From assembly GCF_013004105.1 (NCBI RefSeq), contig NZ_CP053085.1, positions 868,001 to 932,000 on the forward strand: 64,000 nucleotides of DNA, written 5' to 3'. Source of the DNA: Gemmatimonas groenlandica (GTDB lineage Bacteria > Gemmatimonadota > Gemmatimonadetes > Gemmatimonadales > Gemmatimonadaceae). The notes beneath the pieces are model-generated. The model was given only the letters and a program-made list of their open reading frames with translations, ran no database searches and had not been told where the DNA came from. Shown here in pieces: positions 7,986-37,465 of this stretch (positions within the stretch are counted from its first letter, which is position 1; every line of letters starts with the position of its first letter). Both the position numbers and the translations under genes were made by a program.

Positions 7986-8061
<76 letters not shown>

Positions 8062-8102
8062 CTGGTCGCACTGTAAGCGCCGGTGAGCCACGGCGCTTCA
8101 GG

Positions 8103-8175
8103 AGGTCCGTAGCTCAATTGGTAGAGCACCGGTCTCCAAAACCGGCGGTTGGGGGTTCGATTCCCTCCGGGCCTG
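8103..8175 (+). tRNA. tRNA-Trp (CCA)
   Basis: The acceptor stem is AGGTCCG/CGGGCCT with one G-U pair. The anticodon stem CCGGT/ACCGG encloses loop CTCCAAA. The discriminator is G, as expected for tRNA-Trp. The 3' CCA is not encoded. Confidence 0.96.
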
Positions 8176-8287
8176 TTGCTGAGTATGGTGTATCAGCGTC
8201 GGGTGTAGGGCGGGCGCCGAAGGGCGTTCGGTAGCAAGGATAGTTCCGCCGTGGCCTCGCGCCTCGGTAGAGCGCTCGGAAACTGGA

Positions 8288-8308
8288 GTGATCGCGACCA
8301 GCGATCAC
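8288..8308. other. Perfect hairpin between tRNA-Trp and tRNA-Glu
   Basis: GTGATCGC and GCGATCAC form an 8-bp stem around a GACCA loop in the 184-nt spacer between two tRNAs. It has no T-tract. It may be a processing signal. Confidence 0.4.
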
Positions 8309-8325
8309 GACTGGAAATGAAAGAT

Positions 8326-8364
8326 CCGCCGTGGCTTCCCGCCGCAGGCGGAACGCCACGGCGG
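8326..8364. other. Hairpin that takes up the 5' end of tRNA-Glu
   Basis: CCGCCGTGGC (8326-8335) is exactly complementary to GCCACGGCGG (8355-8364), and the interior adds CCGCC/GGCGG around GCA. The right arm includes the first five bases of tRNA-Glu(CTC), so the precursor could fold either this way or as the tRNA acceptor stem. A second copy of CCGCCGTGGC lies near 8248. Confidence 0.5.
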
Positions 8365-8432
8365 TATCGTCTAGGGGACTAGGACACAGCCCTCTCAAGG
8401 CTGGAACACGGGTTCGAATCCCGTTACCGCTA
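8360..8432 (+). tRNA. tRNA-Glu (CTC)
   Basis: Acceptor GGCGGTA/TACCGCT closes with a G-U first pair. The D arm begins GTCTAGG as in other Glu tRNAs. Anticodon stem CAGCC/GGCTG encloses CTCTCAA, anticodon CTC. The 3' CCA is not encoded. Confidence 0.95.
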
Positions 8433-8462
8433 CTGAAGATGCTGTTGCAGGACGTAGACTCT

Positions 8463-8534
8463 GGCTCCATCGTCTATCGGTTAGGACACGACCCTTTCAA
8501 GGTTGAGAGACGGGTTCGATTCCCGTTGGAGCTA
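8463..8534 (+). tRNA. tRNA-Glu (TTC)
   Basis: Acceptor GGCTCCA/TGGAGCT also has a G-U first pair. The anticodon loop is CTTTCAA between CGACC and GGTTG. It is the second glutamate isoacceptor, 31 nt after the first. Confidence 0.95.
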
Positions 8535-8577
8535 TCAGCTCCCTCTGGAGCTGGCTGATGCAGGTGCAGGTGTTGTT

Positions 8578-8652
8578 GGGGGCGTAGCTCAGTTTGGTTA
8601 GAGCACTCGACTGTCACTCGAGAGGTCGCGGGTTCGAGCCCCGTCGCTCCCG
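8578..8652 (+). tRNA. tRNA-Asp (GTC)
   Basis: Acceptor GGGGGCG/CGCTCCC; anticodon stem CTCGA/TCGAG with loop CTGTCAC; discriminator G. The 3' CCA is not encoded. Confidence 0.96.
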
Positions 8653-8728
8653 TTGTTCCGCGGATGTTTGGGATGCAGGTGCTGGTGGAGTTTCCGCGAA
8701 CACAGATGCAGTGCTGCAGGTGTTGTAC

Positions 8729-8810
8729 GCCCTCGTGGTGGAATTGGTAGACACGCTACTTTGAGGTGGTAGTGCTTAACGGCGTCGCGGTTCGAGTCCG
8801 CGCGAGGGCA
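8729..8810 (+). tRNA. tRNA-Leu (GAG)
   Basis: This is a class II tRNA of 82 nt with a long variable arm. The acceptor GCCCTCG/CGAGGGC is perfect, and anticodon loop TTGAGGT lies between CTACT and GGTAG. The discriminator A is typical of leucine. Confidence 0.95.
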
Positions 8811-8859
8811 CTGTTTACCGCTGGATAGCACGACACGGCACCTCACCGTGAGATCGAAC

Positions 8860-8931
8860 GCCACAGTAGCTCAGTGGTAGAGCACCCGATTCGTAATCGG
8901 GCGGTCATCGGTTCAATCCCGATCTGTGGCT
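8860..8931 (+). tRNA. tRNA-Thr (CGT)
   Basis: Acceptor GCCACAG/CTGTGGC and anticodon stem CCCGA/TCGGG around TTCGTAA. Last member of the seven-tRNA cluster. The 3' CCA is not encoded. Confidence 0.96.
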
Positions 8932-32242: not shown

Positions 32243-33766
32243 CTATTTCTTCTTGGTCGTCACCTTGATGACACCATTGACCCCGGCGTCGCCATAGATC
32301 GCCTTTGCGGCATCTCCCTTCATCACCTCGATCGACTCGATGGCGTCGGGGTTGAGCGTGCTCAGTATCGACGACTCGACCCGCTGTCCGTCGAGCACGA
32401 GGATCCCGGTGAATTGACGTCGCGGCGACCCGGCGAGGTTGATCACGGCCGGCGCCGCGCCTTTGGTCTTGAACCCGGTAACACGCACCGTGCTGTCCGA
32501 AGCATCGGCGGCACTCACGCGCATGCCCTGCAATCCCTCCGTTGTGGTGATGGCAATCTTTTGCTGCTGTCCGCCCTGCACGTTTACGGTGGCGATGCTG
32601 TCGGCCGACAGCGCATTCGCTTCGGCTCGACTGACAGTCCGCCCGTTGACGGTGTACACGGCGGTCGCCGTATTGATCTTCGTCACTTGGGCGACTCGCG
32701 ACTCGACGCCCTTCACGTCCATCGCCTGCATTTCGGCCGCCGTAGGCAGCTGTGATTCACACGCGGCCAGCAGTGCGACGGTGGCCAACAAACCGCTGCC
32801 GAGTCGACGGGAGCGAATGAACTGCGACGGTCGTGAGGTCATGGTGATCAGTCTCCGTTCGAGGTGTGATGCGTGGTAGGAAAAGGCGGGGCTGGTGAGC
32901 GCCAGCGGGGTGCGGGCGATGCTGCCGTGCATGAACTGCGGGACGTGCGAAGAGAGTTCGATCAGCAGTTGGCCGTACTGTCGCGGTGAGGCGCCGGTGC
33001 CGATCACGCGGCGATCGCAATCGAGCTCGATGGCGAGCCGAAGGCGCGCAAGGACGAACCAGGCGATGGGATTCCACGGCATCAGGGCAATGGCACCACA
33101 GGAGGCCAGCAGGAGCAGTGGATCACCGGCGGCGATGTGAGACTGTTCGTGCGCGATCACCAGCCGTTGCTCGAGGTCGGACCGATCGAGCAGCCAAACG
33201 GGGACCGCGATACGCGGGGAGCGCACACCGATCACGGCGGGCCCGAGCGCCTCGGTCACGCTCACGATCACGCCGTCGATCTCATGACGTGCGGCGCGCT
33301 GGAGTTCGTCGCGATGACGACGATAGCTCACGCCGAACGCGCAGAGCACGAGCGCGGAGGAGAGCGGCCAGGCAAGCGTGATGGCCTGCTGTGCGGCGAC
33401 CGGTGCGCGATCGATGGCGCCGCCGACGGCGGTCGTGGTCCAGGACACCGGTGCTGAGAGCGCGCGACTCACGCGACCAGTCACTGCGGCGACGGCGGCG
33501 CGCACGTCCATAGGTCGCGAGGCCCTCGCGCCGGTGGTCGCCGTACCGGCGACGTCGAGCGTGATGGTGGCGAGCGTCGACTGCGGCGCGGGCCGGAGTG
33601 GCGCGACGAGCACCAGCACCAGCGACGAGAACAGCGCGCCTGCCCAGATCACGCGCGCCGGCAACGCGCGACCGGCCAGCCGCTGCAACACCAGCGCGGC
33701 GGCGGCGAGGAGGGCACTGACCACGATCGCCTGTGTCATCCAGCCGATGATCAGCGAGGGCGTCAT
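32243..33766 (-). CDS. M56 (BlaR1-type) metallopeptidase with TonB-plug-like C-terminus
   Basis: This is a 507-residue membrane protein. The N-terminal part has BlaR1-like transmembrane helices and a cytoplasmic-loop peptidase with HEQSH (206-210) and the downstream Glu in AIELDCD. After the last helix (LLATVALLAAC) comes a periplasmic region. It ends in ILVLDGQRV followed by DAIESIEVMKGDAAKAIYGDAG and GVIKVTTKKK, the signature of a SusC/TonB-receptor plug. BlaR1 proper has a penicillin-binding sensor at this position, so here the sensor has been replaced. The start overlaps the stop of the BlaI-type repressor gene (4 nt). Likely role: sense a periplasmic ligand and cleave the repressor. Confidence 0.87.
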   Translation of the reverse strand: MTPSLIIGWMTQAIVVSALLAAAALVLQRLAGRALPARVIWAGALFSSLVLVLVAPLRPAPQSTLATITLDVAGTATTGARASRPMDVRAAVAAVTGRVSRALSAPVSWTTTAVGGAIDRAPVAAQQAITLAWPLSSALVLCAFGVSYRRHRDELQRAARHEIDGVIVSVTEALGPAVIGVRSPRIAVPVWLLDRSDLEQRLVIAHEQSHIAAGDPLLLLASCGAIALMPWNPIAWFVLARLRLAIELDCDRRVIGTGASPRQYGQLLIELSSHVPQFMHGSIARTPLALTSPAFSYHASHLERRLITMTSRPSQFIRSRRLGSGLLATVALLAACESQLPTAAEMQAMDVKGVESRVAQVTKINTATAVYTVNGRTVSRAEANALSADSIATVNVQGGQQQKIAITTTEGLQGMRVSAADASDSTVRVTGFKTKGAAPAVINLAGSPRRQFTGILVLDGQRVESSILSTLNPDAIESIEVMKGDAAKAIYGDAGVNGVIKVTTKKK

Positions 33767-34137
33767 GCGTCGTCCCCGAGTCGCTCATCAAGCAGGGCCC
33801 GCATGCGCTCGAGCTCTTCGCGGCCAAGCTGCTTATCCGACACGAGCTGGGTGAACATGCGCTCGGCCGACCCTTGAAAGATCGCGTCCTTGATGCGGGT
33901 CAGTGCACTGCGCCCGGCCCGTTCGGCGGCGACCGCCGGGAAGTAGCGGTAGGCCCGACCCTCGGGCTCGTGACGCACGTAGCCCTTATCCTCGAGGGTC
34001 TGGAGGGCCGAGAGGACGGAGGTATAGGCGAGGTCCTCCTCCATGGCGTCGCGGACATCAGCCACGGTCGCGGAGCCGAGTCGCCAGAGGACACTCATGA
34101 CGGCGAGCTCGCGCGGTGGGAAATGGACGTCGGTCAT
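33763..34137 (-). CDS. BlaI/MecI/CopY-family transcriptional repressor
   Basis: This 124-residue winged-helix repressor has the family opening FPPRELAVMSVLW, recognition region YTSVLSALQTLEDKGYVRHE and a C-terminal dimerisation helix (DKQLGREELERMRALLDE). It is the first gene of a two-gene operon with the M56 protein, the classical BlaI/BlaR1 arrangement. A 16-bp dyad (34164-34179) about 27 bp upstream of the start is a plausible autoregulatory operator. Confidence 0.93.
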   Translation of the reverse strand: MTDVHFPPRELAVMSVLWRLGSATVADVRDAMEEDLAYTSVLSALQTLEDKGYVRHEPEGRAYRYFPAVAAERAGRSALTRIKDAIFQGSAERMFTQLVSDKQLGREELERMRALLDERLGDDA

Positions 34138-34163
34138 GTCGATGGCGGCTGCGGGGAAGTCAG

Positions 34164-34179
34164 TACTGGTTGTGCAGTA
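34164..34179. promoter_or_regulatory. Candidate BlaI-type operator
   Basis: TACTG-GTTGTG-CAGTA is a perfect dyad with 6-nt spacing upstream of the repressor gene, and CAGTACTG (34161-34168) is itself palindromic. BlaI/MecI operators are TACA/TGTA-type dyads of similar size. Assignment rests on position and symmetry. Confidence 0.45.
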
Positions 34180-34244
34180 GTATGGGGAGAGGGTGGGAAA
34201 TTGTCAACTGGTTTATCCGTAGGTGGAGGCGGGCTCGGTGCGTA

Positions 34245-34307
34245 ACGGGCTGTGGGCTGTTGGCTTGGGGTGGTGGGTAATGCGTTTTGGGTAGTGGGTG
34301 CCAGCGG
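34245..34307 (+). repeat. Left inverted-repeat arm of IVS-like element
   Basis: G/T-rich arm. It contains an uninterrupted 26-nt block (34253-34278) and a 13-nt block (34288-34300) that are exactly complementary to the right arm, separated by a variable 9-nt patch. Confidence 0.85.
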
Positions 34308-34379
34308 GTGGCGCCGCCAAGACCACGCGTGCGTCGCTTGGATGACGCGGGTTCTGAAATCGCGCCTACACTCGACCGC

Positions 34380-34733
34380 ATGCAAGACTTTCAGAATCTG
34401 CGCGTGTGGCACGAGGCGCACGCCTTTGCCGTCGCGGTCGATCTCGCGGCGAAACAGTCTGCACGAGGGCGTGCGGAGCTGATCAACCAGCTTCGTCGTG
34501 CCGCCGACTCCATCCCCGCGAATATCGCGGAAGGGTCGGGGCAACTCACCGACCCGCAGTTCGTCCGCTTCCTCGCGATTGCGCTTGGCTCGGCGACCGA
34601 GTCCGCGAATCACCTCATGCTCGCGCGTGATACCCACGCGCTCCCGATTCCCGTCGCCGAAGAACTCCTCTCTCGAATCGGACGAGTGAGGCGCATGCTC
34701 ATCAACCTGCTGAAGCGCCTCAATGCGGTGTAA
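34380..34733 (+). CDS. Four helix bundle protein (23S rRNA-IVP / Avd-like)
   Basis: This 117-residue all-helical protein has the family hallmarks: the start MQDFQNLRVWHEAHAFAVAV, the core RRAADSIPANIAEGSGQ and the ending SRIGRVRRMLINLLKRL. The family (IVP/S23) is encoded in intervening sequences of 23S rRNA genes in Leptospira and Coxiella and shares its fold with Avd of diversity-generating retroelements, a pentameric basic barrel that binds nucleic acid. The ATG at 34380 matches the usual start. The gene is the only one inside the 63-bp inverted repeats and probably binds the element's own folded RNA or DNA (inference). Confidence 0.88.
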   Translation: MQDFQNLRVWHEAHAFAVAVDLAAKQSARGRAELINQLRRAADSIPANIAEGSGQLTDPQFVRFLAIALGSATESANHLMLARDTHALPIPVAEELLSRIGRVRRMLINLLKRLNAV

Positions 34734-34751
34734 TCGTCTCCCGGTGTCACG

Positions 34752-34814
34752 CCGCTGTCACCCACTACCCACCACACACCACCCACCACCCCAAGCCAAC
34801 AGCCCAAAGCCCGT
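34752..34814 (-). repeat. Right inverted-repeat arm of IVS-like element
   Basis: C/A-rich arm, the reverse complement of the left arm with seven mismatches, five of them in one 9-nt patch. Its outer end lies 16 bp from the stop codon of the isomerase-like gene. Confidence 0.85.
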
Positions 34815-34829
34815 AAAGCCGACAGCCCC

Positions 34830-35744
34830 CTAAACCGTGCACACCTCCACTGCCTCCCTCAACGACTTCATCCCCTCCCTCTTCGGCAAAAACTCATGCG
34901 CGAATACCCCGCGGTATCCCGATCCCGCAATGAACTCCGCGATGCCGCGATAGTTGAGTTCCTGCCCTCCATCGATCTCGTTTCGACCCGGCACCCCTGC
35001 CGTGTGGAAATGTCCGATCCACGGGAGGTTCGCCTTGATCGTGGCGATCACGTCTCCTTCCATCACCTGCATGTGGTAGATGTCGTAGAGCAGGCGAAAG
35101 CTCGGTGAGTTCACGCCCTTCGCCACTTCGACGGCCCACGCCGTGTGATCGGCGTGATAGTCCCTGTGATCGACCTTGCTGTTCAACATCTCCATACACA
35201 GCACGACGCCGTGCCGCTCAGCGACGGGCATCAACCGCTTGAGACCGGTGATGCAGTTCGCGATGCCTTCGCCGTCCGACATTCCGCCGCGGTTGCCGCT
35301 GAACACCACGATCTTCTGAACGCCTGCCGCGGCGGCTTTCGGGATCATGGCCTCACCGTCGGCCAGCAGCTTGTCGTGCTGATTCAGCCGGTTGAAGCCC
35401 ACCGGAATCGCGCCAAAGCTGTTGCCCATCGTGCACTGCAAGCCGTACTGCTTCGGCACTTCCCACTCGGTATCGCCGAGGAGATCGACACCCATCAGCC
35501 CCATGCCTTTTGCCGAGGCGCACAGATCGTTGATGGGTGTTCGTGCGAAGCACCAGCGCGCCACGGACTGATTGAGGCGTCCGGCCCGAACGCTATCGGC
35601 GTCGATGCGCCCCGCGGCGATGTCGGTCGTTGCGGCGCCGAGCGGCGATGCGGAGACGGAGACGGCCGCGGCGCCAAGGGCGAGGAGCGCCCCACGGCGG
35701 GACACGCTGAGCGAGTCGCTGGCCGGTTCGGAAGGCTTCGACAT
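34830..35744 (-). CDS. Tat-exported sugar isomerase-like TIM-barrel protein (Hyi family)
   Basis: This 304-residue protein has a twin-arginine signal (SRRGALLALGAAA). The TIM barrel resembles hydroxypyruvate isomerase and xylose-isomerase-like proteins. Metal-ligand candidates lie in VLCMEMLNSK (Glu), LLYDIYHMQ (Asp/His), WIGHFHTAG (His) and VFAHEFLPK (Glu). Its start overlaps the stop of the GMC oxidoreductase gene (TGATG); a GTG at 35747 is the alternative. In such operons these proteins probably act on 3-keto sugars made by the dehydrogenase, as epimerase, isomerase or deglycosidase (inference). Confidence 0.85.
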   Translation of the reverse strand: MSKPSEPASDSLSVSRRGALLALGAAAVSVSASPLGAATTDIAAGRIDADSVRAGRLNQSVARWCFARTPINDLCASAKGMGLMGVDLLGDTEWEVPKQYGLQCTMGNSFGAIPVGFNRLNQHDKLLADGEAMIPKAAAAGVQKIVVFSGNRGGMSDGEGIANCITGLKRLMPVAERHGVVLCMEMLNSKVDHRDYHADHTAWAVEVAKGVNSPSFRLLYDIYHMQVMEGDVIATIKANLPWIGHFHTAGVPGRNEIDGGQELNYRGIAEFIAGSGYRGVFAHEFLPKREGMKSLREAVEVCTV

Positions 35745-37465
35745 CACAGGTTTCTCCGCTTCAGTTCACCGACGGCGTGCGCCACGGCACGCGCGGTCAG
35801 CGCCATGTACGTGATCGATGGATTTTGACACGCGCTGCTCGACATCGCGGCGCCATCGGTGATGAACAAGTTGGGCACATCCCACGCCTGATTCCAGCCA
35901 TTCAGCACGCCGTCCTTCGCCGTCGTCGACATGCGTGCGCCGCCCATCTCGTGAATGCAGTGGCCGGGTGGATGCATCGTGCGATTGGGACGCACGTTGA
36001 TCGCGCCCGCCGCTTCGAGAATCTCGACCGCGCTGGCCGACACGTCCTTGTTCATGGCGATTTCGTTGTCACGCCAGCGCACGTCAATGCGGGCGGCGGG
36101 AATGCCCCACTTGTCCTTCGTAGTCCCATCGAGCGTGATGCGGTTGTCGGCGTGCGGCAGCGTTTCGCCCCAACCGCCGATGTTGATGCCCCATGGTCCG
36201 AGATCATCGATCAGCGACTGCTTGAATGCCGCGCCGTAGCCGGCCATGCCGCTGCCGCGTCCCCAACCGGAGCGACTCGATCCGCCCTGCATGCCATAGC
36301 CGCGCAGGAAATCCGGGCTCTTCGTGCTCACGTTGCGGAAGCGCGCCACGTATATGCCGTTCGGTCGACGGCCGATGGTGCGCTTGTCGAGAAAGCCGGG
36401 CATCGTGCCGCCGGCACCGGAGCCGTAGTGATGATCCATCACGTAACGTCCGAGCGTGCCGCTGGAGTTGGCCAGACCGTCGGGCCAGCGCGTGCTGGTG
36501 GAGTTCAGCAACAGTCGCACCGATTCGATGGTCGAGGCACAGAGGAACACCACCTTTGCCTCGTACACGGTCTCCTGCTTCGTGGCGGCATTAATGACGC
36601 GTACGCCACGTGCGCGGCCGCGCTTGGCGTCGTACAGCACTTCGGCCACGACGCTGTGCGGGCGCAGCGTGAGACGCCCCGTCTTCTGGGCGGCGGGCAG
36701 CGTGCTGCCGATGCTGTTGAAATACGAGTGCGTCACGCAGCCGCGCTCGCACGGTCCACAGTAGTGACACGCAGCGCGTCCGTTGTGATTCTGCGTAAGA
36801 ATCGCCGCGCGACCGATGGTCATGACGCGCTCGCCGTTGAACGCCTTCATGATGCGTTCGCGCGCGACCTGTTCCACCACCGTCATCTGCATCGGCGGCA
36901 GGAACTCGCCATCAGGCAGATGGGCCAATCCTTCCTTCGCGCCCGTCACGCCAATGAAGCGCTCTACGTGAGAATACCAGGGCGCGATGTCCTTGTAGCG
37001 AATCGGCCAGTCGGTGCCGTGACCGTCCTTCGCATTCGCCTCGAAGTCGAGATCGCTCCAGCGATAGACCTGACGGCCCCACATGATCGAGCGTCCGCCA
37101 ACCTGACGTCCACGGAACCACTTGAACGGCGCGTCGTCGGGCGAGACATACGGATTGTCGTGGTCGTTCACGAAGAACTTGCGTCCGGTTTCGTCGCACG
37201 CGTAGCACTGCCGTTGCACCGGCTGCTCCTTCTCCAGGGCGTTGCGATCGCCCCAGCCGCGGTACTTCATCTCGTATGGCTGAATGTGCTCCACGAAGTC
37301 CTTGCCGCCGAAATCCACCGGGCCCCCGGCTTCCAGCACGAGGGTGGCCAAGCCGCGCTCCGTGAGTTCCTTGGCCGCCCATCCGCCGCTGATGCCGGAG
37401 CCGACGACGATGGCGTCAAACACGCGACGCTGTGGTTGCGCGTCGATCAAGAGCTCCTCACTCAT
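35744..37465 (-). CDS. GMC-family FAD sugar dehydrogenase, large subunit
   Basis: This 573-residue flavoprotein oxidises a sugar or sugar alcohol. The FAD-binding dinucleotide motif VVGSGISGGWAAKEL is near the N-terminus; the C-terminal GMC signature includes HPPGHCIHEMGGARMS and the active-site His region. A cysteine cluster CHYCGPCERGC (CxxCxxCxxxC) in the middle suggests an Fe-S cluster, as in FAD glucose dehydrogenases. GGAGG five nt before the ATG at 37465 decides the start. It is made after the small Tat subunit (8-nt overlap), which should carry it across the membrane, and before the isomerase-like protein. The set resembles glucoside 3-dehydrogenase systems. Confidence 0.9.
   Translation of the reverse strand: MSEELLIDAQPQRRVFDAIVVGSGISGGWAAKELTERGLATLVLEAGGPVDFGGKDFVEHIQPYEMKYRGWGDRNALEKEQPVQRQCYACDETGRKFFVNDHDNPYVSPDDAPFKWFRGRQVGGRSIMWGRQVYRWSDLDFEANAKDGHGTDWPIRYKDIAPWYSHVERFIGVTGAKEGLAHLPDGEFLPPMQMTVVEQVARERIMKAFNGERVMTIGRAAILTQNHNGRAACHYCGPCERGCVTHSYFNSIGSTLPAAQKTGRLTLRPHSVVAEVLYDAKRGRARGVRVINAATKQETVYEAKVVFLCASTIESVRLLLNSTSTRWPDGLANSSGTLGRYVMDHHYGSGAGGTMPGFLDKRTIGRRPNGIYVARFRNVSTKSPDFLRGYGMQGGSSRSGWGRGSGMAGYGAAFKQSLIDDLGPWGINIGGWGETLPHADNRITLDGTTKDKWGIPAARIDVRWRDNEIAMNKDVSASAVEILEAAGAINVRPNRTMHPPGHCIHEMGGARMSTTAKDGVLNGWNQAWDVPNLFITDGAAMSSSACQNPSITYMALTARAVAHAVGELKRRNL

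Follow-up and report, generated by a model that had tools for sequence, protein, structure and literature searches.

The IVP gene and inverted heptad arms at 34231-34828 of the window (the whole 64-kb stretch of DNA that was analysed) are interpreted as a miniature foldback mobile element; its IVP would recognise the heptad arms and drive the movement of ORF-less copies. The probability of this reading is put at roughly two in three. Its recurrence in many phyla, and the gain or loss of gene-less arms at gene ends, make the unit look like a widespread type of miniature mobile element with neither transposase nor reverse transcriptase.

The element between blaI and a TIM-barrel gene

The gene (34380-34733, plus strand) encodes a four-helix-bundle protein of 117 aa with a pI of ~10.6. 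The protein is a member of the 23S_rRNA_IVP family: it matched Pfam PF05635 with an E value of 2e-26 and 92.4 bits (cut-off 33.8) and TIGR02436 with 89.7 bits (cut-off 24). This gene family has so far been familiar mainly from interruptions of rRNA genes. The gene is enclosed by a left arm (34231-34307, strong core 34245-34307, plus strand) and a right arm (34752-34828, strong core 34752-34814), which carries the left-arm heptads on the minus strand; the arms have relatives elsewhere in the genome. The initial annotation had described a 117-codon IVP/S23 gene between 63-nt ends, of which 56 positions are complementary, 26 of them in one uninterrupted block; three of the seven mismatches were given as A/C or C/A on the plus strand. 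These details were reproduced by the profile matches and by alignment of the two cores, and a repeat search lengthened the arms to 77 nt at 83% complementarity. The heptad structure of the arms is a feature that had been overlooked. From 34247, the left arm reads in register GGGCTGT, GGGCTGT, TGGCTTG, GGGTGGT, GGGTAAT, GCGTTTT, GGGTAGT and GGGTGCC. Relative to dinucleotide shuffles, the element folded with z-scores of -10 (minus strand) and -14 (plus strand), so that pairing of the arms is far above chance on either strand.

On the left, the element adjoins an insertion context (34138-34230) upstream of the blaI-like gene (33763-34137, minus strand), in which TTGTCAACTGGTTTATCCGTAGG is conserved whether or not a relative carries the element. 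On the right, a TIM-barrel/sugar-isomerase-like gene (34830-35747, minus strand) lies outside the element and served as a marker for orthologous sites. The site between two protein genes, and the absence of rRNA from the Rfam matches of the 64-kb window, place the compact element outside rRNA, as had been proposed. No Rfam match was obtained in the window element or in nine element loci. Beside blaI, the minus-strand stretch 32243-33766 resembles, by eye, an M56/BlaR-type membrane peptidase fused to a TonB-plug-like C-terminus. Elsewhere in the window, seven tRNA genes are clustered in ~950 bp (7988-8931).

The AlphaFold model of the IVP (pLDDT 93.6) has four helices and matched 2gsc (XCC0516 of Xanthomonas) with a TM score of 0.91. 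It also matched BT_0352 (2rld) and Avd of diversity-generating retroelements (DGRs), with TM scores of 0.79 for 4dwl and 0.76 for the DGR ribonucleoprotein 8ub7; the fold shared with Avd, mentioned in the initial annotation, was thus recovered by structure comparison. The solved structures 2gsc and 2rld contain five chains each, and the title of the XCC0516 structure paper speaks of five four-helix bundles. The window protein, modelled as a monomer, is predicted to have this pentamer-forming S23/Avd fold. In all pairs with unsaturated dS, dN/dS of the IVP was 0.03-0.20 (0.07 between the window IVP and its orthologue in G028). The IVP is therefore a protein in use, and it is under strong purifying selection; where this acts at vertically inherited sites, it suggests that the protein also has a function for the cell.

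Further copies and their turnover at orthologous sites

The host genome, a complete chromosome of 5.18 Mb, contains five IVP genes, four of which lie between long inverted arms with a different arm sequence each time. In the window element these are GGGTNNT heptads, in L003 degenerate AGGGAGG heptads (55 nt, 91%), in L004 ACTCNNG heptads (145 nt, 82%) and in L005 the 16-mer CGCTAAGAGTCAACTG (82 nt, 83%). The fifth gene, L001, has heptads on one side only and no clear partner arm.

The search of the host genome for arm sequences, as suggested initially, revealed ORF-less relatives scattered through the genome. Sequences similar to the window arms recur at ~10 other loci, in most cases as inverted pairs that enclose no gene. 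In these, GGGTNNT heptads are usually outside and GGGCTGT inside, the reverse of the order in the IVP element. Arms of the L004 type occur without an ORF at ~12 loci, most of them inverted pairs 50-180 bp apart, and here the arm order is the same as around the L004 gene. Arms of the L005 type likewise occur in a copy that lacks the gene (L271). The L004 IVP, whose arms have the most gene-less relatives, is interrupted by an in-frame TAG at L004 1746-1748; its orthologue in G021 is intact. Altogether 30 lag-7 arrays were counted in 1.66 Mb of sampled host sequence, many of them tight inverted pairs. At L035 840-1225, a window-type heptad hairpin is repeated three times in tandem, separated by a short common spacer. 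At L037 ~975-2475 (host C1 ~2954970-2956480), a window-type heptad hairpin encloses a frameshifted mutator/IS256-like transposase that has inverted ends of its own, and such hairpins may therefore be insertion targets.

The window element occupies the same site in the sister species G028, G022 and G021 and is missing from most others of the genus; in G012 the site carries a different IVP. Heptads of the GGGTNNT type are found in both arms of the host and G028, and GGCC-type heptads in both arms of G022 and G021. The claim that the gene and its arms form a unit is thus upheld in the relatives. The initial annotation had named the lack of a second copy, and arms that are not conserved with the gene, as findings that would speak against it; neither applies, because other copies exist and the arms accompany the gene in relatives. 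Heptad arrays change quickly in length and sequence. At the L003 site, the flanking genes of G022 and G021 are 99% identical (dS 0.08), whereas the IVPs share 76% identity (dS 1.01) and both arms have changed along with them, so the gene and its arms were exchanged in one block in G021.

Empty sites, which the initial annotation had suggested looking for in sister strains, were found in sister species for two ORF-less hairpins with arms of the L004 type. Copy a, which sits immediately behind a stop codon and ahead of a terminator, is lacking in G021, G022 and G028. Copy c occurs in G021 but not in its sister G022, where just a few nt separate two convergent stop codons. Target-site duplications are not legible at these sites because the compared species are only 80-90% identical. 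In having ORF-less inverted-arm copies that are present or absent at orthologous sites, the element behaves like MITEs and foldback elements.

Such copies could also be MITE-like elements moved in trans by a conventional host transposase, with the IVP as mere cargo or accessory. The resemblance of the ORF-less paired-arm copies to MITEs agrees with this, and transposases are present in the host genome, for example the mutator-type one inside the hairpin. Yet the arm sequence differs with each IVP copy of a genome and tracks the IVP rather than one transposase, profile search of the complete host genome gave no Y1_Tnp match, and no common terminal sequence was seen, nor a duplication at empty sites from species at 80-90% identity. 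Movement by a conventional transposase is accordingly considered improbable. As no RVT_1 match was obtained in the same search either, both a reverse transcriptase and a RAYT were rejected as the mover. Neither a nuclease nor a polymerase was found within the gene-plus-arms unit.

Gene-plus-arms units across phyla

Generality was assessed with 120 non-redundant IVP loci, comprising 80 loci of many phyla and family members, and arms were scored at SW≥30. Inverted arms were found at 73% of these loci and at 0.9% of 575 neighbouring ORFs; when arms of different loci were cross-paired, 5% reached SW≥30. Chance or base composition as the source of the arms is ruled out by the shuffles, the control ORFs and the cross-pairing. 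The best period was 7 or 14 nt in 80 of 88 strong arms, the lag-7 match in arms was 0.65 versus 0.27, and the median aligned arm was 35 nt, i.e. five heptads. About one quarter of IVP genes are without clear arms. The 80 loci had been picked by a conserved peptide, and this selection was addressed by a census that took in every IVP of five genomes from other phyla, in which 20 of 27 had arms. Each census element has its own repeat unit, a few of them apparently of 6 or 8 nt. Arm units seemingly other than 7 nt were noted in L280 (~8), L284, L291 (6) and L298.

Heptad arms were present in all seven distinct IVP elements examined on cyanobacterial plasmids; those of Nostoc plasmids consist of GGGANNN heptads. 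One plasmid element lies between ribonucleotide reductase genes and one in a type I-D cas operon, where it is located between cas6 and cas4 (L216 2501-2860) and has AAAGCTA heptad arms. IVP genes in cas loci were earlier reported as possible cas partners (PMC3936711). For the copy seen here, insertion is the simpler reading, which suggests that IVP genes can reach cas loci by insertion. In a genome-level comparison of array density with IVP number, heptad arrays reached 52.5 per Mb in IVP-rich and 2.7 per Mb in IVP-free genomes, but 20 of the 21 arrays came from one genome, so that the difference largely reflects this genome. In G035, a 2.9-Mb genome with 10 IVP genes, 20 heptad arrays were counted in 100 kb (L379-L383), mostly GGCTATT/GGCTGTT hairpins; this genome is well suited to the study of hairpin dispersal.

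Among 92 elements with a heptad profile, pairs with higher IVP identity tended to have more similar heptads when located at non-orthologous sites (Spearman 0.42). Across phyla the coefficient was 0.47, or 0.40 after removal of GC difference, and none of 500 within-phylum permutations reached the cross-phylum correlation. Heptad motifs fit better on the same strand than as reverse complements. A large clade with RGYNNTY heptads comprises IVPs from Chloroflexota, Acidobacteriota, Cyanobacteriota, Proteobacteria, Planctomycetota, Verrucomicrobiota and Nitrospirota. At unrelated sites, a cyanobacterium (L112) and a dehalococcoid (L106) have IVPs that share 78% identity, which is suggestive of transfer from one phylum to another. 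Since related IVPs have related heptads even across phyla, gene and arms form a cognate unit. The initial proposal that the element may carry its own binding protein in the loop gains support from the covariation; co-inheritance of gene and arms without recognition could, however, produce the same pattern.

The arms could instead be passive: slippage would create heptad arrays, template switching at the quasi-palindrome would keep the arms alike, and the IVP would be a cellular gene in hairpin-prone spots. Consistent with this are the quick variation of heptad arrays in length and sequence, the existence of gene-less heptad hairpins and a balance of mismatch types (see below) that fits a DNA-level process. 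Against it, only 0.9% of neighbouring ORFs have such arms, heptad type tracks IVP relatedness across phyla, and at the L003 site a gene and both its arms were replaced together; we regard passive arms as very improbable. Strict base-by-base copying between arms was likewise rejected, as the in-register match of 0.845 was only modestly above the 0.773 obtained when units were permuted (44 of 60 elements above).

Three mismatches of the window arms had been noted to become G-U pairs in a minus-strand RNA. Over 88 elements, however, arm mismatches yielded potential G-U pairs 101 times on one RNA strand and 119 times on the other, and 312 of 532 mismatches were transversions. Wobble pairs as a mark of RNA selection were therefore dismissed for lack of strand bias. 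These counts bear on an RNA-level element, in which the arms pair in the transcript, RNase III cuts the stem as in rRNA intervening sequences (IVS), the IVP binds RNA and selection keeps the RNA hairpin; insertion into transcripts would be tolerated because the RNA is trimmed. In its favour, IVS of 23S rRNA have complementary ends, carry an IVP gene and are excised by RNase III, and the Coxiella IVS has tandem heptads directly upstream of its S23p gene (PMC4990558). The folds are very stable, some copies lie inside operons, and Avd, with the same fold, belongs to a reverse-transcriptase ribonucleoprotein (8ub7). Besides the missing strand preference, it is opposed by the about equal stability of both folded strands and by the IVP loci, which had no 23S context apart from one chance motif match. 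Processing alone also leaves the presence/absence of ORF-less copies and the genome-wide heptad families unexplained. An element acting only at the RNA level is thus thought unlikely.

Proposed mode of action and relation to known systems

For the mobile element, the following course is proposed. A heptad-array arm, the IVP gene and an inverted heptad-array arm make up a unit of ~530-600 bp. The IVP, pentameric in solved relatives, would recognise the heptads of its own arms, in the simplest case such that each subunit binds one heptad of a single-stranded or hairpin arm (cf. the median arm of five heptads), and would promote moving or copying of any DNA with a pair of such arms. ORF-less hairpins would be internally deleted copies, on which the IVP acts in trans, and which disperse and settle at gene ends between stop codon and terminator. 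DNA cutting and joining may be performed by borrowed host replication or recombination enzymes. The arms change rapidly, selection maintains the gene, and both can be swapped together as a cassette. RNase III may additionally trim the RNA, as it does in rRNA IVS.

The 23S rRNA IVS of Leptospira and Coxiella share with the window element the protein family, the gene between complementary ends (56 of 63 positions here) and a similar size. The window element differs by its location between protein genes instead of inside a 23S rRNA gene and by its long heptad-array arms, and the host elements differ by dispersed ORF-less copies and by occurring several per genome with their own arms each. The Coxiella IVS, of 428 nt, has tandem heptads in strain-variable number just before the S23p gene (PMC4990558), which supports a view of 23S rRNA IVS as a special case, namely members that would have landed in rRNA.

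REP/REPIN systems with a RAYT likewise have dispersed intergenic pairs of inverted short repeats and a cognate gene flanked by repeats, but the window element has an IVP four-helix bundle instead of a Y1 transposase, which the complete host genome lacks by profile match, and a 7-nt tandem unit. MITEs are alike in their ORF-less inverted-arm copies that are present or absent at orthologous sites; here, the parent encodes an IVP and no transposase, and the arms are heptads. Avd of DGRs has the IVP fold; unlike the IVP, it has no described heptad arms, and the reverse transcriptase of a DGR had no counterpart in the complete host genome (0 RVT_1 matches).

The heptameric G-quadruplex repeats of Xanthomonas (GGGAATC) and Nostoc (GGGGAYT) and the cyanobacterial STRRs are also G-rich intergenic heptads, whereas many IVP arms are A+T-rich and incapable of forming G-quadruplexes. 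The Xanthomonas and Nostoc heptads are often inverted pairs, and their function was given as unexplained, with mobile elements not implicated (PMC4692102). In Xanthomonas, GGGAATC heptads co-occur with the solved IVP XCC0516. No report joining the Xanthomonas or Nostoc heptads to an IVP was found in the literature searched, from which subscription journals were largely absent.

A more general view is offered tentatively, at somewhat less than even odds. IVP/S23 genes would form a separate, phylum-spanning class of mobile elements without known nuclease, transposase or polymerase. In these elements, a ring-forming four-helix-bundle protein would recognise the 7-nt units of its own inverted arms, each subunit taking one unit, and would mobilise both the complete element and derivatives that have lost the gene. 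Both rRNA IVS and orphan heptad arrays (Xanthomonas, Nostoc, STRRs) would be products of this class.

The reading assigns a proposed role to the 'four helix bundle / S23' genes, which are among the commonest small gene families, and joins three unexplained things: rRNA intervening sequences, bacterial heptad repeats and IVP genes inside cas and other operons. It also calls for caution with IVP genes in cas loci, which may be insertions and not immune genes. If the IVP binds its own heptads and moves hairpins, it would represent a mobile element without any known transposase.
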